Assembly: GCF_015062915.1 (NCBI RefSeq)
Contig: NZ_SUTJ01000001.1
Location: 130,045 to 194,044 of the forward strand
Reading direction: 5' to 3'
From: Methanobrevibacter thaueri
Lineage (GTDB): Archaea; Methanobacteriota; Methanobacteria; Methanobacteriales; Methanobacteriaceae
DNA: 64,000 nucleotides
Shown one piece after another: positions 48,946-61,932 of the stretch (position 1 is its first letter; the number at the start of each line of letters is the position of its first letter). A program made the position numbers and the translations under genes. The notes under the pieces were generated by a model, which was not told where the DNA came from, searched no databases, and saw only the letters and a program-made list of their open reading frames with translations.

Positions 48946-50274
48946 TTATTTTTCAACAACAATTTTACCAGTTTTGCTTACAGCCTTGTATGCACCGTCA
49001 CCTGCAAATTTTGCAGTGTACTTGAAAGATCCCTTTTTGGTGACTTTTACCTTAATGGAAGCAACACCTTTGGAATTGGTTTTGGCAGAAAATGTTTTTC
49101 CATTAACTTTGAGGGTGATTTTCTTATTGGCAATAGCTTTACCATTAGATTTTAAAGTTATTGATATCTTTTTAGCCTTCTTGACTTTCAAGGTAGCTTT
49201 TGGTGCTTTCAAGGTTGTTGATTTTTTGCTTACAACTATCTTGCTTGATCCAATTGAGGATTTGTAGTCGTCATCCCCCGCAAAGGATACTGTAACATAA
49301 TGGGTTCCTGCTGAGGAATACTTAACTGAAAGTTTAGCAACACCGCTGCCATCAGTTACAACTTCCTTTGAAACTCCATCGATTATGACAACAACAGTCC
49401 TGTTTGAAAGAGGATTGTTCTGAGAGTCCTTCAATGTGACCTGCAGGTTGCCTGCATCTCCAGCCAAAATGTTCAAGTTGGCAATTGCAATGCTTGACTG
49501 GGACAGTTGCTTGACTTCCTCCTTAGCTGCTGAAATATTATTGGAATTGATGTTTGAAGCGTTGATTGAATTTATGAAACTGTTCACATTGCCCACAACA
49601 ATATTCCTGATTAGGGTGTTGTTGGTGTTGTTCAATATTATGGCATTGAACTGGAAATCCTCAGGATTGTATTTGGATGTTTGCTGGGCAACGCCCACCC
49701 AATTGAATGTCAAGTTCTCCAATACAACATCATCTGCGTCAACATAAACGCCGAACGGATTGTAGATGTTGTTTGCAATGTAGTAAAAGTCGTTTGTAAA
49801 TGAAAATCCACTTAAAACGGTTCCGTTGGCTTCTGGGGAGATGTAGAATATTCCATTTTCCTCAGGGCCTGTGCCGTACTTCATCATGTGGGTGTGGTGA
49901 GGACATACTCCAACACTTGTTCCAGGGGTTGCTATTATGTTTAGTGTCTTGTTGATCATGAAATGGCAATGGACGAATGTTCCGTTAAGAACAATAGTGT
50001 CTCCAGGGTTTGCAGCATCAATTACAGGTTGAACTGTAGGCTTTTGAACCTGGTTAGGATTTTCCGGGTCTGGCTCGACAGTCCATGTTTTAGGCCCAGT
50101 TTCATCCTCGCAGCATGAATCATCAAGTATTTCTTCATTATCGTTTATTTCAATTATGTCATCAATTTCACTGGATAAGGTTACATTATCACTGTCCTGA
50201 GCGGATATTGATCCGATGAATGTCAAACCGACCAGCAGAATTAATGAAAAGATTATAAGTTTATTTATTTTCAT
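48946..50274 (-). CDS. Adhesin-like protein with HCH/CPHHTH motif, 442 aa
   Basis: Signal peptide residues 1-25 (KLIIFSLILLVGLTFIGSIS). A beta-helix region spans about 70-240; at its start is GDTIVLNGTFVHCHFMINKT and then VCPHHTHMMKYG, placing H102, C103, H104 and C124, H126, H127, H129 close in sequence. Two Big_1-like Ig repeats follow, ending in a Lys-rich segment (KVTKKGSFKYTAKFAGDGAY). GGAGA precedes the ATG. TTAAC-N4-GTTAT sites lie upstream. The His/Cys set suggests metal binding or disulfide formation in the N-terminal turns. Confidence 0.87.
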   Translation of the reverse strand: MKINKLIIFSLILLVGLTFIGSISAQDSDNVTLSSEIDDIIEINDNEEILDDSCCEDETGPKTWTVEPDPENPNQVQKPTVQPVIDAANPGDTIVLNGTFVHCHFMINKTLNIIATPGTSVGVCPHHTHMMKYGTGPEENGIFYISPEANGTVLSGFSFTNDFYYIANNIYNPFGVYVDADDVVLENLTFNWVGVAQQTSKYNPEDFQFNAIILNNTNNTLIRNIVVGNVNSFINSINASNINSNNISAAKEEVKQLSQSSIAIANLNILAGDAGNLQVTLKDSQNNPLSNRTVVVIIDGVSKEVVTDGSGVAKLSVKYSSAGTHYVTVSFAGDDDYKSSIGSSKIVVSKKSTTLKAPKATLKVKKAKKISITLKSNGKAIANKKITLKVNGKTFSAKTNSKGVASIKVKVTKKGSFKYTAKFAGDGAYKAVSKTGKIVVEK

Positions 50275-50415: not shown

Positions 50416-53400
50416 TTAAACTGGAATTTCACTGGAATCCAATGTTTTGTTGACCAGCACCACGAAAGTCCTGTATTGGTCAAACAATGAACCTATTGAA
50501 ACCCTGATTATATTGGATTGTGCATCGAAGCTAGCGGAATCGAATGTGAATGTGCCCACACCGCCAACAACATAGAACTTCAATTCAACCTTGTCATTCA
50601 ATGTAGCATACATTTCAAATTCAGGCAGTTTGGAAGCCACTTCACCACGCTTATAGAATTTTATTGAATATGTTCCAGGACTTACAACCTCAATATCTCC
50701 TGTGGAAATATAGGTTGCATTGATTCTAGGACACATTGTACCGTAACCTGTGATATTTTTGTCATAGTCCCAGGTCACTCTTGCATTCCTACCGAACCAG
50801 TTTGCACCCAACTGCAATTTCTTTGTGTCGTCTTCAGGACCATACTTATAGATACCTTCAGGATTAGCGCTTAACTCTCCCAATATCATCATACTAGGTC
50901 CTTTGGCGTTCCTGTATATTGCATTATCATTAACGTCTGGCTCAACAGCATTTTCAGCGAGGTCATAACCTGCATTGAACCTGATGCCCTCAAGCGCATT
51001 GTCTGAAATCCAGTTGCTTGTAATGACAATTCCTGTTGAATAGTTTGAGTCAACGGAAATTCCCATATAATTGTCCAAAATCCTGTTGTGGGTTATGGAA
51101 ACATTGACTGCTGACTGGTTCAAGAAGATACCGTAACCCAATGGCCCTTCAGGAATATTCATGACATGCAGGCCGATGTTTTTGGTAATTAGGTTTTTGG
51201 TAACGTTTGTGTTTTTAACTCCTACACCATAGGTTATTCCGTAATTGCTCAATGACAATGTATTGTTGCTTATCTCCAAATCATCAGAATCCTTGAGGAA
51301 GATTGCATTTTCAAATGATGAAACATCGTTTTTGGAGACGAGAATGTCGGATGCGTTCACTATTTCAATTCCGTTTCCAGGAATCAATATCTCACCTGCA
51401 CCATATCCATCAACCTTGGACTGGTCTAATGTATTGGATATTGTGTTGTTAATGATGCTTACGTTTCTCACATCCCTGATGACTATTCCAGATCCCTCAT
51501 TTGCATTGATTGTAAGATTTGATATGTTGAAGTTGGAAACCGCAATTGTCAAGACAGGGCTTCCTGCTTTACCATTTAAAACTGTATTTGGAAGGAAAGC
51601 AATGTCCACTAACCTGTCGATTGTGAGGCTAACGTCATTATAGCTATTTCCTAAAAATTCCACTTTTCCACTTGCCTCATTGAATCTGGCCTGGATTTCA
51701 TCTCCCGGCAGGTTCTCATCGATGAATGTGACACCCACCTTATCGGAGATTGTGATTGTGCTTCTGGACTCAGAAGCCCTGTACTGGTTTGTTTGGGAAT
51801 AGCTTGAGACAATGTCATATGTTCCCACACCCAATCCTGAAACATCAATCTTAATTTGACCGTTTTCATCAGTGCTTTTGGAATAATTTTGATTGTTCAA
51901 TGTGTAGGCAATATTCTGATTGCCCATTGCGTTTCCTTTGGAGTCTTTCAATGTAATTGAGTACATTTCAGAGGAATCCTTTGAGAATGTCCTGTTGTAG
52001 CTCACCAAGTCTGTTGTCATTCTTGAAACCTTGATTGTTCCTGCAGCATTTGAATTTTTATATATTGTGGTGCCTGCATAGGTCACGGTTGCCTTATAGG
52101 TATTCTCAACACTGAAGACGGGCTGAATTGTTACCTTACCATTGGAATCTGTTGTTTTGGAATAAGTCTTGCCGTTTATGGTAATCTTCAATGTTTGCTT
52201 GGCCAATGCCTTACCTGTGCTTGTTTTCAAGGTTACAGTGTAAGCTTTTGCAGTGTTCGGATTTGTTTCCATATTAGGGGCAGTGATTTTGGTCACTATC
52301 TTTTGAACTGTAATCTTGCCTGTTGCAGAGGATTTCTTATAGGATTTGGTCTTCTTGTAGGTTGCCTTGACCTTATATGATTTCAATTTTGAGAATTTGA
52401 CCTTGATTGTCGCTTGTCCTTTGCTGTTGGTCTTTTTGGTGTAGGTCTTTCCGTTAACCTTGATTGTGACCTTTTGGCTTTTCAAGGCCTTTCCGTTCTC
52501 ATTTTTCAAGGTTACAGTGTACTTGGTTGAAGTTTTAGGGGTTGTTGTAACCTTAGGGGCAGTCAACTTGGTTTTCAAGACCTGTTTAACAGTGATTTTA
52601 GTGGTCTTTTTGGCAGCTGCATACTTGGCGGTGCCCTTGTAATTCATCACAACCTTGTATTTTCCCTTCTTGAGTTTGAGTTTCAGCTTGATGATTCCCT
52701 TGGAGTTTGTCTTTTTGGTGTAGGTCTTCTTGTTGACCTTGATGGTTACCTTTTGACCAGCCAATGCTTTTCCGGTTGAGTCCTTTAAAGTCAATTGATA
52801 GTAATCCGCCTTCTTTATGAACATTGCATAGTTAGATGCCACGAGTTTAGTGGAAATCTTTTTGACTGTGACCTTGGCCTGGGCGGTTGATGCTGAATAG
52901 TCTATATCGTCACCTGCATATGAAGCCTTAACATTGTATGTGCCTGCATTTTCACTGATCTTGAATGTGGCCTTACCGTTGGCGTCTGTTGTTGCCTTAA
53001 GTGTTTTGGAGCCGATAGTGAATGTGACTTCCTCACCCATAATCGGATTGTTGTAGATGTCTGTCAATGTTACTGCAATATTGGCGTTGGATTGAGGATA
53101 TGTGCTCAAGTCTGAAACGCTGATTTTTGTTGCTGTCACATTTCCTGGAATGAGGCTGTCATCGACATTGAATGTCTTCACATTCTGATATGCATCCCCG
53201 GTAATGTAGTTTGAAGTACCTGGAAGAACAACAGTCACCACGTTTCCAGATTCTTTAAAGTCTTCCGGATAGAATCTGACTGTTGCGGTACCGTCAACCA
53301 TCATGACCTTCTTGTAGACATCCCCTGCTTGAGGTGCAACATAAGTGTTGTTCTTATTCATGTAGAATATTACCGGAATGGAGCTTAATCCCTTTGCCAC

Positions 53401-54681
53401 ATTGCCATTTGCATCAACAATGGAAATGGTGTAGATTCCCTTTTTGGATTGGGACACTTCAGTTAACTGAAGCCTGTAATTTCCATCGGACCATAATATT
53501 GTTTCATATTTATAGTGAAGAATAGGGCAAGCAACATTCTCATTGATTTCAAAGGTGTATCCTAAAAATGCCCCTCCGCTTTTAGCGTTGTTAACCGGCC
53601 TCACATTATTTCCAACGAAATAATTATTGTTGACCACATAATACTTTTCTCCACCTTCCTTGAAGAATCCATGGGCATTTGGTCCGTTGTAGATTTCCCC
53701 ACCACCATCAGGGAATGAATTCATGTAAAAGAAGTTTCCAATGATGTTGAGCTGAATAACCTGACAGTTAACATATACTCCATAGTCACTGTGTTCGGAA
53801 ATGTAATTGCTCAGGATATTAATATTATCACTGGAGGTCAAGGTGATGCCCTTAACATTGCTTGTAATGTTGTTGAAGCTGATTGTAGGATTGCTGGAAG
53901 TTCCTTCTACTAAAATACCTGATTTTTTATTGTTAACGATATTGTTAGAGGTTATGGTTGTTTTTGTGGAATCAACATCATCAATACCATAATTTGAAGC
54001 ACTTATGATGGAATTCTTAACAATAGTGTTTTGGGAATTCTTAATTCTTATTCCGTTTTCCGCATTGGAAATTGAAACATTGTCTATTGTTGCTGCATTC
54101 GTATTTTCTAACCTTATTGCATCTCCGCTATTATCAGTAGAAAATGTACAGTTTCTAATTATCACATTTGAAGCGCCATTCACCAATATGCCATAATCAT
54201 CAGATGAGAAAATATTCCCGTTATCATTTCTAAAATTAAAACCTTCAATTATGGTTCCGCTGGCCTGTGCAGTAATGTAAAAAATTCCACTATGGCCTGA
54301 AACTGCAGTGCTACTGCATGGATTCAATACAGTTCCAACATCACTTTTGATTGTCAATTGCTTATCAATAGTGATATGTACATGATCATAGCTTTGACCG
54401 TTGATGATGAGTGTGTCACCGGCGTTTGCAGAGTTAATTGCATTTCTAATAGTATGTTCGTTCATTTCGTTATGGTCTTCCCCAACATTATCCACATCGA
54501 TTGTTTGAGATGCTGACAATGAGAGTTCATCATTTGGACTAGTTAATAAACTATCCTCTGATTCATCATCAAGATTTAATGAATCAACCGTTTCATTATC
54601 TTCCACAGCAGCTGCAGAGCCAATGCAAATCAATGCAACTAAAATAAAAGATAATAATATAACTGCATTATTAATCTTCAT
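50416..54681 (-). CDS. Large adhesin-like protein with two beta-helix domains, 1421 aa
   Basis: Signal peptide 1-25 (NNAVILLSFILVALICIGSA). A first beta-helix covers about 70-330 (RNCTFSTDN, SNNIVNNKKSGILVEG). A linker precedes five Ig-like repeats (about 520-1000) with TKKTNSKGQATIKVKFSKLK-type text. A second beta-helix runs to about 1330 and has IVIRDVRNVSIINNTISNTL. A final beta segment ends the protein. It is unusual here in having helix domains on both sides of the Ig repeats and no Lys-rich extreme C-terminus. GGGGAG precedes the ATG at 54681. Confidence 0.87.
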   Translation of the reverse strand: MKINNAVILLSFILVALICIGSAAAVEDNETVDSLNLDDESEDSLLTSPNDELSLSASQTIDVDNVGEDHNEMNEHTIRNAINSANAGDTLIINGQSYDHVHITIDKQLTIKSDVGTVLNPCSSTAVSGHSGIFYITAQASGTIIEGFNFRNDNGNIFSSDDYGILVNGASNVIIRNCTFSTDNSGDAIRLENTNAATIDNVSISNAENGIRIKNSQNTIVKNSIISASNYGIDDVDSTKTTITSNNIVNNKKSGILVEGTSSNPTISFNNITSNVKGITLTSSDNINILSNYISEHSDYGVYVNCQVIQLNIIGNFFYMNSFPDGGGEIYNGPNAHGFFKEGGEKYYVVNNNYFVGNNVRPVNNAKSGGAFLGYTFEINENVACPILHYKYETILWSDGNYRLQLTEVSQSKKGIYTISIVDANGNVAKGLSSIPVIFYMNKNNTYVAPQAGDVYKKVMMVDGTATVRFYPEDFKESGNVVTVVLPGTSNYITGDAYQNVKTFNVDDSLIPGNVTATKISVSDLSTYPQSNANIAVTLTDIYNNPIMGEEVTFTIGSKTLKATTDANGKATFKISENAGTYNVKASYAGDDIDYSASTAQAKVTVKKISTKLVASNYAMFIKKADYYQLTLKDSTGKALAGQKVTIKVNKKTYTKKTNSKGIIKLKLKLKKGKYKVVMNYKGTAKYAAAKKTTKITVKQVLKTKLTAPKVTTTPKTSTKYTVTLKNENGKALKSQKVTIKVNGKTYTKKTNSKGQATIKVKFSKLKSYKVKATYKKTKSYKKSSATGKITVQKIVTKITAPNMETNPNTAKAYTVTLKTSTGKALAKQTLKITINGKTYSKTTDSNGKVTIQPVFSVENTYKATVTYAGTTIYKNSNAAGTIKVSRMTTDLVSYNRTFSKDSSEMYSITLKDSKGNAMGNQNIAYTLNNQNYSKSTDENGQIKIDVSGLGVGTYDIVSSYSQTNQYRASESRSTITISDKVGVTFIDENLPGDEIQARFNEASGKVEFLGNSYNDVSLTIDRLVDIAFLPNTVLNGKAGSPVLTIAVSNFNISNLTINANEGSGIVIRDVRNVSIINNTISNTLDQSKVDGYGAGEILIPGNGIEIVNASDILVSKNDVSSFENAIFLKDSDDLEISNNTLSLSNYGITYGVGVKNTNVTKNLITKNIGLHVMNIPEGPLGYGIFLNQSAVNVSITHNRILDNYMGISVDSNYSTGIVITSNWISDNALEGIRFNAGYDLAENAVEPDVNDNAIYRNAKGPSMMILGELSANPEGIYKYGPEDDTKKLQLGANWFGRNARVTWDYDKNITGYGTMCPRINATYISTGDIEVVSPGTYSIKFYKRGEVASKLPEFEMYATLNDKVELKFYVVGGVGTFTFDSASFDAQSNIIRVSIGSLFDQYRTFVVLVNKTLDSSEIPV

Positions 54682-54877
54682 ATTCTCCCCTAATTTTTTT
54701 ATAACAATGACTTAAAACATCAATATATACAAATATATTATCGATATAATTAATGTATTTCGGTTTTTTGTAATAAATTAGAAAAATTTTACAAATTGTT
54801 TAAAGTGATTTGAAGAAAAATACATATAGATATATTTATAAAACTTTATTCAATTGTAAAAAGATGGGGGATTTAAT

Positions 54878-56365
54878 ATTAAAAATGGATTAATTATTCT
54901 TTCAGTGATACTGATTATTTTCGCTACTTTATCCTGTGTAAGTGCAGGGGAGAGCAACTTGACATTGAGCAATGAAAACAAAAATGTGTTGAATGCAAAC
55001 CCTGGTGATTTTTCAACCCTTGCAGATGAAATCAGCAATGCAGAAACAAGATCATTGAATTTGACTACAGATTACCAATATGATGGACAAAAGGACAGCC
55101 AATATCGTGATGGAATAACAATCAATGTCGACGATTTCATCATTGACGGACAGGGACATACGATTGACGCCAATAAACAGGCAAGAATATTTAAAATTCA
55201 AGCCAAAAACGTCATCATAAAAAACATCAACCTGATTAACGGAAATGCAACCTCCCATGGTGGTGCAATCTATTGGACTGGAGACAACGGTTCTTTAATC
55301 AATTCCACAATTAAAAATTCAATTTCCCCAAACAGCGGCGGTGCAGTATTGTTCAAGAACACTGGAAGCATCATGAATTCAAGATTCATTGGCAACACAG
55401 CATATTTTGGAGGGGGAGTGTGTTTTGACAGTGACAGCAAAACGGTCAACTGCCAATTCGAAGACAACTTCGCAACATTTCTTGGAGGCGGATTATACAC
55501 CAGCCAGAACGCCAACATAACCGATTCCACATTCACAAACAATGAGGCAGGAGACGGTGGAGGAATCTATTTACAGTACAACGGCATAATAAGCAATTGC
55601 AGTTTCCAGAAGAATAATGCAATAGGATACGGGGGAGCAATAACCGGAGAAAACAAGGTTATCGTCAGGGATTCAGAATTCCTCAAAAATACAGCAAAAT
55701 ATGCCGGAGCAATATACTTTAAGGGAAATGGATATGTTCATGATTCCAATTTTACTCAAAACTCTGCAGAAGTGAGTGGAGCAGTATATGCTACAAGTGA
55801 TGAACTTGAAATAATCAACAGTGAATTCAACCACAATATCGCCCCTAATGGAGCATCATTATATATCACTGCAAAATCCGCAAAAATTGAAAACACCTCA
55901 TTCAACAATGATCAGTCATCCTATCAGAGTGAAATCTATTCTACAGCAACTCCTACATTAAGCAATGTGTCATTCAACAATATCACTAAAAAGGAGGAGA
56001 GCAAGGATAATGACACTATGCCTGAAAACAAAACCTCACCCAATACAGACAACGGTAAATCCAATACGGTTATAGTTAAAAAGGCAGCTAAAAAAACAAG
56101 GATTTATGCAAAATCAAAGACATTCAAATTAAAGAAAGCTAAAAAATACACTATAACATTAAAATCCGGAAAAACAGTCCTTAAAAAGAAAAAAGTGACC
56201 TTGAAAATAAACGGAAAGACCTACACCAAGAAAACAAACAGCAAAGGAAAATGTGTGTTCAAACTTAAAATGAAGAAAAAAGGTAAATTCAAGGCAGTGA
56301 TTAGATTTAAAGGAGACAAGTCATACAAGGCATCTAAAAAGACAGTGAAAATAAAAATTAAATGA
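54878..56365 (+). CDS. GGA(I/V)-repeat adhesin-like protein with probable ATT start, 495 aa
   Basis: The frame has no ATG near its start. A GTG at 54905 has no ribosome binding site and would cut the signal peptide. GGGGGA at 54866-54871, 6 bp before an ATT at 54878, gives (M)KNGLIILSVILIIFATLSCV, a full signal peptide. The body has PMP-like repeats (GGAIYWTGDN, GGAVLFKN, GGGVCFDS, GGGLYTSQ, GGGIYLQYN), then one Lys-rich Ig repeat (KLKKAKKYTITLKSGKTVLK). It is convergent with the next adhesin, with a palindrome between. Confidence 0.8.
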   Translation: MKNGLIILSVILIIFATLSCVSAGESNLTLSNENKNVLNANPGDFSTLADEISNAETRSLNLTTDYQYDGQKDSQYRDGITINVDDFIIDGQGHTIDANKQARIFKIQAKNVIIKNINLINGNATSHGGAIYWTGDNGSLINSTIKNSISPNSGGAVLFKNTGSIMNSRFIGNTAYFGGGVCFDSDSKTVNCQFEDNFATFLGGGLYTSQNANITDSTFTNNEAGDGGGIYLQYNGIISNCSFQKNNAIGYGGAITGENKVIVRDSEFLKNTAKYAGAIYFKGNGYVHDSNFTQNSAEVSGAVYATSDELEIINSEFNHNIAPNGASLYITAKSAKIENTSFNNDQSSYQSEIYSTATPTLSNVSFNNITKKEESKDNDTMPENKTSPNTDNGKSNTVIVKKAAKKTRIYAKSKTFKLKKAKKYTITLKSGKTVLKKKKVTLKINGKTYTKKTNSKGKCVFKLKMKKKGKFKAVIRFKGDKSYKASKKTVKIKIK

Positions 56366-56384
56366 AGTGTAGGATTCCTACACT
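56366..56384. terminator. Palindromic hairpin between convergent adhesin genes
   Basis: AGTGTAGGATTCCTACACT is a 19-bp palindrome around a single base, filling the 17-bp gap between the two stops and overlapping the stop codon of the leftward gene. It can form a hairpin in either transcript. Confidence 0.5.
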
Positions 56385-59300
56385 ATTTCTTTACTTTTAA
56401 TGTTTTCTTAACCTGATAATTCAGGTACTTTACAGTCACTTTATACTTGCCAACTTTAAGATTCTTAAACTTGACTGTGGCAACACCCTTCTTGTTGGTT
56501 TTGGCCTTATATGTTTTGCCCTTGATTTTGAAAGTGATTTTCTTATTCTTTATGGCCTTGCCCTTGCTTGTCTTTAAGGTTGCTGTGAATTTGATCTTTT
56601 TGGATTTTTTCGCAACCTTATTCTTTACCTTCAAAACGTTTTTGACGATTATCTTGTTTTTAACTGTAGAGCCTTTATAGGTTGTTGTTACGGTATATTT
56701 TCCTGGAGTCAATGCAAATGTCTTTGTGGCATATCCTTTTGCATCGGTTTTCACGTTATATGTTTTGCCATTAACCTTCATGAGTACCACAACATCTTTT
56801 CCGACAACCTTACCGTCTTTTCCGATTACACGCACCTTGAATGTGACTTTACCATTATAGTCAACGGTAACATCCTTATTGTTGGTTATTTTTGATGGAT
56901 TGATTGAAACAGGCAATGAAAGTGACCCATCATACAGTTTTACTGTAATTGAAGAGACTTTCGGAAGGCTTATTGACTTTGAAATGTAACCGTTTGCAAC
57001 ATTTAATGTGTCACCTATAGATAAGCTGACCTTAAGAGTTGGCAGATCAGAAGTGCTCTGCAATTGTGAGACTTCCCCCTTATTATTCATTACCTTGTTA
57101 AGGGAAACTGCAATATTAGCGGATTCATATTGCATTAAATTGGTTGTGGATTCAAAGCCCATTATGATCCAAGTGAAATTGTCAGCAATTGCAAAATTTA
57201 GCAGACTTTCAAAGTCAGGATTGTTGCATCCCCACCAGTTATCTGTCATGTTGCTGTTTTGATTATTGACATAAATCGCATTTCCCTGGGAAGCCTGATT
57301 ATTGAACAATGCGGAGTGTGTCATGTTAATGTCCTTTCTTGCGATTATTGCACCACCCTGAGCTCCTGCAACATTGTTTTCAAATATGGCTCCGTAAATG
57401 TTTAAGACATTATTGTTGTCTATTGCACCCCCATTCTTAGTTGCCTTATTGTTTGTGAATGTGGATTTGATTATAGTTATCTCTCCACCGTTGTCGATTG
57501 CTCCGGCACCATATGCCTGATTATTGTCAAAAATGGTGTTTTCAATTGTCAGCTTGCCTGCATTGTCTATGGCACCACCATAACTAATAGCCTTATTGGA
57601 CAAGAATTGTGAATTGTTTATAAAGATAGTGGCTCCACTATTGAAAATGACTCCACCCTCATCAGAACCCTTGTTTGACTTGAATATAGAGCTTGTTATT
57701 GTTACATTACCGGACAGAATTCCTAAAACTCCATAGGTATGCTCGACAATATTGCTTTCAAAGTTTGAGTTGTCAATAATCAATTGGGACACACTATATA
57801 TGGCAGCTCCTCTGCTTGCCTTGTTGTTTTTGAGGTCACAATTATCAATTGAGGTTGTTTTATCTAAATTGTACAACACACCTCCGATTTGTGCCTCATT
57901 TGAATCCAATTTTGAATTTATCAGTTCCAGATTACCTTTATTATAAGCAACACCACCATAATTGCTTGCCTTATTATTGTTCAGTTTGGAATCGGTAACA
58001 TGAAGCTGAGCATTGTTATAGATGACTCCTCCATTGTTTGCATCATTTTTTTCCAAATTGCTTTTCACTGCGTTTAAATTTCCATTGTTGTAAATTGCTC
58101 CACCCTGAGTGGCGTGATTGAGATTGATTTCACCACCAGTGATGTTTAGATTTTTGGTATTGTAAACTGCACCCCCGTTAGAGGCTGAATTCATGTTGAT
58201 TTTACAATCAAATAAATCTAAAGTGTTCTCATTGTAAATTCCCGCCCCATTGGATGCGGAATTGTTGGTTATGGTGAACTTATTTAATGTTACGATTCCC
58301 TGATTGTAGACTCCCCCGCCAATCTCTGCGGAATTGTTGGCTATTATGACATTTGAAAAGTTCACAGTGATTTTCTTACCTATGTATAATCCTCCACCAT
58401 TTTTGGCGTAATTGTCAAGAATAATGGCATTCTTGACATCGGATTCGAATACGACACATGCCAATCCTCCGCCATTATCGCTTGCGGAGTTGTTTTTAAT
58501 AAGGCAATCCTCCAATGTCAGATATCCCCAACTGCAGTCGATTCCTCCTCCGATTTCAGCGAAATTATTGGTGACTGTTGAATTTTTGATGTCCAAGTGA
58601 CCATCTGAATCTGCGATTATTCCTCCCCCTTCAACGGCATTGTTGTTGTCAAAGATGCAGTTGCGAACGGTCATCAGATACTCTGAGATATATGCTCCGC
58701 CACCTAATTCCCCGGTGTTGTTTCTGATGTCACTATTATATATTTCACAGACTCCCCAGCTTTTGACACCTCCTCCTAAGTGAGATGCTGAGTTTGAATG
58801 GAATTTGGATCCGTTGATTACAAGATATCCTCTATTGTTGTAGATTCCTCCACCGCGTGTTGCGGAATTATTGATGAAAGTGGAATTGATTAGATAAACA
58901 TTACTGAATCTGTTATATATTGCTCCTCCCTCGTGGCCGACATTGTTGATGAATGTGCAGTTGATGATTTGAGAATCTGAGAAATAACTGTCTATTGCCG
59001 CACCAAAGGTTGCAGTGTTTCCTTCAAATACAGAGTTATGTATATTTAGTTTGGAACCGGTTGAACCCCTTATCGCTCCACCTGATGCAAGGTCGGTTGC
59101 CTCGTTATTGATGAATTTTGAATCGAATATTGTTAATTTTCCATTGTTGCTAATCGCTCCACCATCAGAGGCAGTTTTTCCGTTTATGAATGTCAAACCG
59201 TAAACGTTCACATTAACGTTTTTTGAAATTATGAATATGTTTGACTTGTAATCTGCGTCAAGAATTGTGGCTTTGGAACTTGATCCATAGATTGTTATGT

Positions 59301-59523
59301 CCTTATTAATCTTTACTGCAGAACCATTGCTTGTATATGTCTTGTTTTCCAAGTAAATTGAATCGCCTGATTCGGCATTGTCAATAATGTTTTGAATTGA
59401 ATCGAAACTGTTTTCATCAATTGTTTGATTGATTTCGACATCTTCCGCACATACTGTGTTGACTAGTAATATCGAAAAAAATAGTATAAACACCAAAATA
59501 ATGTTAAATTTAAGTTTTTTTAT
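56383..59523 (-). CDS. GGAI-repeat adhesin-like protein with probable ATA start, 1046 aa
   Basis: An ATG at 59574 would put 17 odd residues before the signal peptide and has no ribosome binding site. GGGGGA at 59535-59530 sits 6 bp before an ATA at 59523, giving (M)KKLKFNIILVFILFFSILLV with the usual lysines. About 20 PMP-like repeats follow (GGAISNNGKL, GGAIYNRFSN, GGGIYNNRGY, GGAVYNTKNL). Two Ig-like repeats end in lysine-rich KVGKYKVTVKYLNYQVKKTL. It is the largest repeat protein of this type here. Confidence 0.8.
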   Translation of the reverse strand: MKKLKFNIILVFILFFSILLVNTVCAEDVEINQTIDENSFDSIQNIIDNAESGDSIYLENKTYTSNGSAVKINKDITIYGSSSKATILDADYKSNIFIISKNVNVNVYGLTFINGKTASDGGAISNNGKLTIFDSKFINNEATDLASGGAIRGSTGSKLNIHNSVFEGNTATFGAAIDSYFSDSQIINCTFINNVGHEGGAIYNRFSNVYLINSTFINNSATRGGGIYNNRGYLVINGSKFHSNSASHLGGGVKSWGVCEIYNSDIRNNTGELGGGAYISEYLMTVRNCIFDNNNAVEGGGIIADSDGHLDIKNSTVTNNFAEIGGGIDCSWGYLTLEDCLIKNNSASDNGGGLACVVFESDVKNAIILDNYAKNGGGLYIGKKITVNFSNVIIANNSAEIGGGVYNQGIVTLNKFTITNNSASNGAGIYNENTLDLFDCKINMNSASNGGAVYNTKNLNITGGEINLNHATQGGAIYNNGNLNAVKSNLEKNDANNGGVIYNNAQLHVTDSKLNNNKASNYGGVAYNKGNLELINSKLDSNEAQIGGVLYNLDKTTSIDNCDLKNNKASRGAAIYSVSQLIIDNSNFESNIVEHTYGVLGILSGNVTITSSIFKSNKGSDEGGVIFNSGATIFINNSQFLSNKAISYGGAIDNAGKLTIENTIFDNNQAYGAGAIDNGGEITIIKSTFTNNKATKNGGAIDNNNVLNIYGAIFENNVAGAQGGAIIARKDINMTHSALFNNQASQGNAIYVNNQNSNMTDNWWGCNNPDFESLLNFAIADNFTWIIMGFESTTNLMQYESANIAVSLNKVMNNKGEVSQLQSTSDLPTLKVSLSIGDTLNVANGYISKSISLPKVSSITVKLYDGSLSLPVSINPSKITNNKDVTVDYNGKVTFKVRVIGKDGKVVGKDVVVLMKVNGKTYNVKTDAKGYATKTFALTPGKYTVTTTYKGSTVKNKIIVKNVLKVKNKVAKKSKKIKFTATLKTSKGKAIKNKKITFKIKGKTYKAKTNKKGVATVKFKNLKVGKYKVTVKYLNYQVKKTLKVKK

Positions 59524-59712
59524 TTTTATTCCCCCAATAAACCAATAATATAAATTAAAAATAATTAAATTCAAATAAATTTAGAATTAAACTTATAAAT
59601 TCAACTTAATTATTTTTGTTATGATATAATATGCAAAACGTTAATTATTCATTTATTAAAAATAATATTTAAAGATTTGATAAAAAAAAGAAATGAAAAA
59701 AAGGAAAAAGCA

Positions 59713-61878
59713 TTATTTTTTGACAATCACTTTCACGGTTTTTGAACTTGCCTTAAAATTGGCGTTTCCTAAGAATTTCATTGAAACCTTATATGTTTTG
59801 ACCTTTTTAAGTTTAATGGAAAGCTTTGCAATTCCCTTCTTATTGGTTTTAAGAGTGTATGTCTTGCCGTTCAACTTGACAATTATCTTTTGGCTCTTGA
59901 TGGCCTTGCCGGCACTGGTTGTTAATTTTAACTTGAATGTTTTCTTCTTGTTCTTCTTAACCTTGATGCTGGAAGCCTTTATTTTTGACTTTTTAGAACC
60001 TGTTTTGACAATAATGCTTGATGTTAACTTGGCACTATTATGATTATCGTCGCCACCATATGCAATTGTTACAGCATATGTTTTTTTAGTGGTTAGAGAA
60101 ACCTTTACCTTGGCAATGCCCTGTGCATCAGTTTTAACATTGTATGTCTTTCCATTGAATTTGATGGAAACCTTTTGGTTAGCGATTGGATTTCCCTTGC
60201 TGTCAACAAGTTTTGCTGAAAAATAACTGTCGGACAATGGAAAAGTGGTCAGCTTGGTTGCAATTATCTTAGTTGCCGGGCTGATCGGGATGTTGGAATC
60301 ACTTACATTAAACTGGGAATTTGGATTCCTTTCAACGTCATCTGACAATCCGTTAAATGCTGCAGTGACAACATTTCCAGAAGTCTTGAATGATGCATAT
60401 GAGCTTCTGAAGTCTGCTGTAGCAACCCCATTTTGAATTAAAACCTTCTTGTAAACATTATTCTCTTGAGGTTCAATGGTGGAATATTCATTTAAGAAGA
60501 ATGTGACGTATCCTGAGTTGAAGATAGTTGCCACATTTCCCTTAGAGTCAACAATTGACACCTGATACACTCCATTGCTGGTTTGTCTTATTTCGCCTAA
60601 CCTTAATGAGAGGTCATATTTGCCGTTATTGTTTGGGGCTTCAACTGCCCATGGAATCTGTGTTGTGTAATATGTGAAGCCGCATGGAACGTCCTGATAT
60701 ATGAATGCCCTTTGCATATATACATATGTTTTTCCTTCCACATAATTTCCATTATCTGATGGGAAGAATATGTCGTTTGCCTCATCATATGCCATGGTTC
60801 CGTAGGACCTTTCCACATAGATTCTGTGGTGCAGAATCATTGATGAATGTCCTTCAAAGTAGTTGCAGTCCACTATTGTCAATTGGTCTGCGCCTTCACT
60901 ATTGTCCAGATTTCTTGCGCGGTAATCATACATTATGGCATGAAGGCCGTTGGATATGAAGATATTTCCAGTCACGACAAGTTTTGTGACATTTGTATTG
61001 ACATATATTCCAGATCCGCTATCAGAATTTTCCAAACCATTGTTTTCAATCAGGTTGTCAGTGACATAAACATAATCTGCAACGGTCAGGTTAATGCCTG
61101 ATTTTCCGTTATTCCTTATTGAATTAGAGTTGATTTTGACATTTCTGGAGTTTCCGACTACAGTGACTCCGTAATTGTCATTATAACTTAATATACAATC
61201 TGTGATTTCAACGTTTGATGAATTGATTATTGTAATTCCATTGATTGTATTGTTGACAATCAGATTGGATAGTTTGATGTTGTTTGAATTTCTGACAATA
61301 ATTCCTGTAATCTTATCAGCATTTTCATTAACATAATCCATTGTACAGTCCTTAATTGTCACATCACTTGCCCCATCTATCAGAATGCTGAATGGGGTTT
61401 TGGACTTATCCTTATTGGTGAATGTGAATCCCTGAATTGTTGAGCCGCTGCCCTCAGCAGTTATATAAAATACACCATATTCCTCCAGTCCCTCGTGGGT
61501 ATGGTGGGGACATGCGTCAATGGTTGTTCCTTCACCTGCAACAATATTCAATCTCTTGTTTATGGTCAAATGACAATGAACCGGATTGCCCTCTATTATT
61601 ATGGTGTCTCCAGGATTTGCGCCGTCAATTGCAGGTTGAATCTTTGGCAGCAATACCTCATTAGGATTATACCTGTCAAATGGGACCACTATAGTTTTTG
61701 GAGATTCCGATAAAACATCATCATTTGATGATTCCAGAATATTCGTATCAATATCATTTATTGAATCATCAACTGCAGTCGTATTGTCATTTGAATCTTC
61801 TGCGGCGGATATTGCTCCAATGAGTAATGTGAAAATGACTGCTATTGAAATCATCATCATAAACTTATAAATTTTCAT
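59713..61878 (-). CDS. Adhesin-like protein with HCH/CPHHTH motif, 721 aa
   Basis: The start at 61878 has GAGGGA and gives signal peptide MKIYKFMMMISIAVIFTLLI; the longer frame to 61917 is unsupported. Residues 90-130 carry GDTIIIEGNPVHCHLTINKR then ACPHHTHEGLEEYG (H101, C102, H103, C123, H125, H126, H128). A beta-helix follows (KITGIIVRNSNNIKLSN, NSNSIRNNGKSGINLT), then an Ig-like repeat pair ending KANFKASSKTVKVIVKK-type text. An ATAAC-N4-GTTAT site lies just upstream. Confidence 0.87.
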   Translation of the reverse strand: MKIYKFMMMISIAVIFTLLIGAISAAEDSNDNTTAVDDSINDIDTNILESSNDDVLSESPKTIVVPFDRYNPNEVLLPKIQPAIDGANPGDTIIIEGNPVHCHLTINKRLNIVAGEGTTIDACPHHTHEGLEEYGVFYITAEGSGSTIQGFTFTNKDKSKTPFSILIDGASDVTIKDCTMDYVNENADKITGIIVRNSNNIKLSNLIVNNTINGITIINSSNVEITDCILSYNDNYGVTVVGNSRNVKINSNSIRNNGKSGINLTVADYVYVTDNLIENNGLENSDSGSGIYVNTNVTKLVVTGNIFISNGLHAIMYDYRARNLDNSEGADQLTIVDCNYFEGHSSMILHHRIYVERSYGTMAYDEANDIFFPSDNGNYVEGKTYVYMQRAFIYQDVPCGFTYYTTQIPWAVEAPNNNGKYDLSLRLGEIRQTSNGVYQVSIVDSKGNVATIFNSGYVTFFLNEYSTIEPQENNVYKKVLIQNGVATADFRSSYASFKTSGNVVTAAFNGLSDDVERNPNSQFNVSDSNIPISPATKIIATKLTTFPLSDSYFSAKLVDSKGNPIANQKVSIKFNGKTYNVKTDAQGIAKVKVSLTTKKTYAVTIAYGGDDNHNSAKLTSSIIVKTGSKKSKIKASSIKVKKNKKKTFKLKLTTSAGKAIKSQKIIVKLNGKTYTLKTNKKGIAKLSIKLKKVKTYKVSMKFLGNANFKASSKTVKVIVKK

Positions 61879-61890
61879 AAATTCCCTCAA

Positions 61891-61904
61891 ATAACTATTG
61901 TTAT
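61891..61904 (-). promoter_or_regulatory. ATAAC-N4-GTTAT site upstream of the 721-aa adhesin
   Basis: ATAACtattGTTAT is an exact copy of the cysK operator variant at 10288-10301. It lies 13-26 bp upstream of the start codon, next to the ribosome binding site, so it may act as a roadblock or reflect a very short leader. Confidence 0.5.
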
Positions 61905-61932
61905 ATTTTTCAAGCAAAAAAAAGAAAAGAAA

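Follow-up and report, generated by a model that had tools for sequence, protein, structure and literature searches.

The bacterial gene infC, which encodes initiation factor IF3, starts with ATT in Escherichia coli and with ATC in Streptomyces (PMC5472188). Streptomyces sigR has a GTC start that is repressed by IF3, and its replacement by a canonical start deregulates the regulon (PMC5472188). Among annotated starts of 36 prokaryote groups, a switch from AUG to AUU was recorded for 1 of 61,358 ancestral AUG starts (PMC5622118). For archaea, the portion of a review dealing with start codons gives AUG, GUG and UUG, and AUU, AUA and AUC are not described there (PMC7531240). Our search of the open-access literature found no report of unusual starts, AUU included, in Methanobrevibacter or archaea generally, nor of AUU, AUA or AUC starts (hereafter AUH) in Methanobrevibacter adhesin-like proteins. 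Such proteins are large and secreted in M. ruminantium M1, where many have a C-terminal domain weakly resembling Big_1 (PMC2812497).

Here we analyzed two convergent genes, A and B, in a stretch of 64,000 nucleotides from Methanobrevibacter thaueri (contig NZ_SUTJ01000001.1, positions 130,045 to 194,044; hereafter the window). Similar to the M1 proteins, their products are large, secreted and from a gut methanogen (PMC2812497). They also fit the adhesin-like traits of Methanobrevibacter, namely a signal peptide, beta-helix repeats and a C-terminal Ig-like domain, the Ig-like match of A being sub-threshold. The features are as follows.

54866..54871, plus strand: Shine-Dalgarno GGGGGA of gene A, kept in orthologs; median duplex energy of the family -8.4 kcal/mol.
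54878..54880, plus strand: proposed start codon ATT of gene A; AUH in 10/10 sequences (ATT 6, ATA 2, ATC 2).
54878..56365, plus strand: gene A, encoding a 495-aa secreted adhesin-like protein that has a beta-helix (Chlam_PMP/GGAI repeats) and an Ig-like domain at the C terminus.
56383..59523, minus strand: gene B, encoding a 1046-aa secreted adhesin-like protein that has a beta-helix and, at the C terminus, Ig-like domains (Big_1/Big_3_5).
59521..59523, minus strand: proposed start codon ATA of gene B; AUH in 25/25 sequences (ATT 13, ATA 12).
59530..59535, minus strand: Shine-Dalgarno GGGGGA of gene B, kept in orthologs; median duplex energy of the family -9.5 kcal/mol.

Gene A ends with TGA (56363-56365), and the stop codon of gene B lies at 56385-56383 on the minus strand. 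In Pfam, the A product matched PF02415 (Chlam_PMP) above and PF16640 (Big_3_5, Ig-like) below cut-off, and the B product matched PF02415, PF13229, PF02369 and PF16640, all above cut-off. The signal peptides, judged by inspection, are IKNGLIILSVILIIFATLSCVSA for A and IKKLKFNIILVFILFFSILLVNTVCA for B. Spacers of six bases, TTTAAT in gene A and ATAAAA in gene B (minus strand), connect GGGGGA to ATT and ATA, respectively. Re-reading of the coordinates confirmed the original prediction that GGGGGA, six bases, ATT or ATA and a signal peptide succeed one another in both genes; of the lysine codons said to follow the start directly, gene B has two (ATA AAA AAA) and gene A just one (ATT AAA AAT). The pattern GGGGGANNNNNNATHAARAA (GGGGGA-N6-ATH-Lys-Lys/Asn-type) had two matches in the whole 2.0 Mb draft genome, genes A and B, and none in a reversed control.

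To compare start regions, we searched 67 genomes of the genus for A and B at the DNA level, aligned the stop-to-stop frames and read the starts. The pair is present in many species, often still convergent. ATT, ATA or ATC occupied the start position in all 10 A and 25 B sequences, and ATG, GTG or TTG never did; the tree of B contains at least five ATT/ATA switches and zero AUG. The claim that ATT and ATA are real starts is thus strongly supported by relatives. In genus g9, B homologs (including that of the complete genome G085) carry an ATG or TTG overlapping the Shine-Dalgarno sequence (SD), just before ATA, and their start is ambiguous. A permease-like gene of G085 (L204:3213, plus strand) reads GGTGGGATTTT-ATT, possibly another AUU start.

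Two further families displayed AUH starts. Family C, a third secreted family (~540 aa; own-genome member G000:C22:216331), comprised 16 clear cases after omission of two ambiguous members, with ATA in 8, ATC in 5, ATT in 1 and ATG in 2 (14 AUH, 2 AUG). Its sister sequences L114 and L125 have flanking sequence in common and start with ATA and ATG, respectively, which marks that codon as the start. The gene for prephenate dehydratase, pheA (identity assigned from sequence; own copy L105:7747), had ATT or ATA in 30/30 closest orthologs, with at least three AUU/AUA changes and no AUG among them. AUH was also found in pheA of other genera of the taxonomic family (G106, G104, G076, G068, G073 and G074), and pheA has an AUG start within ~1–2 codons in G007, G002, G004 and most of genus g9. 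Taken together, the four families (A, B, C and pheA) had AUH at 79/81 start positions, and the first two codon positions (AT) were invariant in 81/81; the third base was, in the adhesin families, as variable as other third positions.

We then considered whether AUH is an internal isoleucine, with the real start at a GTG, TTG or ATG upstream or downstream. In-frame candidates do occur in places: a TTG at 59574, 17 codons before the ATA of gene B, a GTG within the SD of some family C members, and an ATG overlapping the SD in L072_1. However, the TTG lacks an SD, and in four B orthologs (L065, L076, L080 and L084) an in-frame TAA is the codon directly before the start, so that the frame cannot be entered upstream. 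The stretch from the upstream in-frame stop to AUH contains no ATG, GTG or TTG codon in 46/81 sequences (6/10 for A, 15/25 for B, 5/16 for C and 20/30 for pheA). Downstream starts would truncate the signal peptide or the PheA core, as would the in-frame GTG of gene A, which lies within the signal peptide 9 codons after ATT, and AUH alone suits the SD spacing. The ATG at 54864 near gene A is out of frame, overlaps the SD and opens only nine codons (MGDLILKMD, then a stop). We consider an internal isoleucine very unlikely.

The same comparison bears on whether these are silenced genes able to revert, as the original prediction had allowed, or products of sequencing error. AUH is one base from AUG, and one sister pair of family C differs by exactly that. 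Against this, the 10 A and 25 B sequences all share the AUH position, the open frame and the signal peptide, and the long frames are intact over ~25 species at 46–62% protein identity. Independent assemblies agree on the position; both B and pheA start with ATA in the complete single-contig genome G008, indicating that assembly error is not the cause. Moreover, a mixture of AUG and AUH is absent in A and B, and swapping among AUU, AUA and AUC without one AUG is the opposite of loss and reversion. Silencing or error is accordingly the least credible of the readings, and we regard it as extremely improbable.

SD strength also distinguished these starts. Duplex energies were at or below -6 kcal/mol in 81/81 starts of the four families, a level reached by only 44% of the first ATGs of 515 own-genome ORFs. 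Median energies were -8.4 (A), -9.5 (B), -15.9 (C) and -10.1 (pheA) versus -5.1 kcal/mol for those ATGs; here the anti-SD was assumed to be the usual 16S 3' end rather than taken from the own genome, and because SD and signal peptide had helped to place the AUH positions, the comparison is only partly blind. The initiation machinery looked standard for archaea, with SD-led initiation, Met-tRNAi, aIF1 and aIF2 in common with the account of it in the review (PMC7531240). The initiator tRNA is ordinary (anticodon CAU, A1-U72, GGGG/CCCC anticodon stem). Among 33 tRNA matches (one tRNA-Ile(GAT)) in the 92% complete genome, none was an additional initiator-type tRNA carrying an Ile anticodon, and no extra aIF1 was found beside its one SUI1/aIF1 gene, which has an AUG start.

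Own-genome stretches totaling 852 kb (43% of the 2.0 Mb draft) contained ~10 AUH starts. These fell on 7/90 signal-peptide-like proteins versus 3/466 others (Fisher p = 0.0002), an enrichment obtained with a crude secretion predictor, a sample partly picked around adhesin hits and candidates judged by eye. The earlier remark that ATG is used by the other adhesins holds for the neighbors in the window (48946-50274, 50416-54681 and 59713-61917) but not for the genome, where the 852 kb include at least five additional secreted proteins with a probable AUH start. A genome-wide tally of SD plus codon showed no AUH excess and was too noisy for so few AUH starts, and a loose SD scan for AUH starts returned mostly internal false positives.

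Several other genes displayed unusual starts. Probable ATT, ATC or ATA starts behind an SD were seen in more secreted proteins of the same genome (G000:C3:6588, G000:C12:7297, L104:6315 and G000:C22:200484, all plus strand). The secreted protein at L129:2089 (plus strand) has an apparent ACG start behind GGAGGTGAAAAT, with ATG in its paralog L099_14. In a methyltransferase-like gene (G000:C24:35775, minus strand; L342-L371; hereafter the C24 gene), ATC, ATG and GTG alternate at one aligned start column across the genus. The CTP synthase gene pyrG (G000:C22:37924, minus strand; L372-L421) has a CTG start behind GGAGAGGATT in 46/50 genus genomes, the complete genome G007 included, and TTG in 4; an in-frame stop directly precedes CTG in L392 and L407, and an in-frame ATG overlaps the SD in many other genomes.

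Replacement of AUH by AUG in family C and in the C24 gene makes plain tolerance the main rival: ribosomes would accept AUU, AUA and AUC (and CUG), and starts would drift near-neutrally, with no regulatory meaning. The two AUG starts of family C, the AUC/AUG/GUG swaps of the C24 gene, the genus-wide CUG of pyrG and the AUG of pheA in some lineages all fit such drift, and the first two indicate that not every AUH start is selected against AUG. However, AUG, one base change away, occurs in none of the 65 sequences of A, B and the closest pheA orthologs, even though AUU and AUA have interchanged in B and pheA, and this absence argues for selection. The strong SD at all these starts, together with the rarity of AUH and its concentration in secreted proteins, also speaks against drift, and we consider relaxed machinery unlikely, though still a serious alternative.

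We favor a different reading as probable: ATT in gene A and ATA in gene B would be genuine starts, members of an AUH set behind strong SDs that selection keeps as a low-output setting dependent on proofreading. A small set of Methanobrevibacter genes, comprising several secreted beta-helix adhesin-like families and the enzyme PheA, would keep third-base near-cognate starts behind unusually strong SDs. The SD may recruit the 30S subunit efficiently, and the third-base mismatch with Met-tRNAi would lead aIF1/aIF2 to reject most attempts; aIF1 is reported to destabilize initiation complexes on non-AUG mRNA (in work cited in PMC6237735). Initiation would thereby run at a low set point governed by start-codon stringency, with selection excluding AUG, and the protein would presumably begin with methionine. 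Damping of expression by weak starts, which had also been suggested originally, is still the best functional guess. A further extension, a translational regulon in which a change in how strictly starts are selected, through aIF1/aIF2 activity, would shift adhesins and pheA together, perhaps with pyrG (CUG), is rather doubtful.

Genes A and B resemble bacterial infC in that an AUH start is kept while its third base changes. Archaea have aIF1 in place of bacterial IF3. Whereas infC is a single bacterial gene that encodes the fidelity factor itself and is autoregulated by IF3, the present case concerns an archaeon and spans metabolic genes as well as several families of surface proteins, and the archaeon's own aIF1 gene starts with AUG. 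The conserved non-canonical start is likewise shared with sigR, for which low expression was tested experimentally and here is suggested by inference. The two differ in that sigR is one regulator gene with GTC, and here sequence comparison points to AUH and CUG in many genes. Collectively, the kind of start is known in bacteria (infC, sigR), and a conserved set of them in an archaeon appears to be new.

Gene finders normally take only ATG, GTG and TTG as starts, so AUH genes are likely to stand in databases without a signal peptide or with false N-termini. Such lost or false N-termini touch the lists of adhesins and vaccine targets for rumen and gut methanogens. Furthermore, AUU, AUA and AUC starts kept in an archaeon would offer natural test genes for third-base discrimination by aIF1/aIF2 and for its possible exploitation by the cell.
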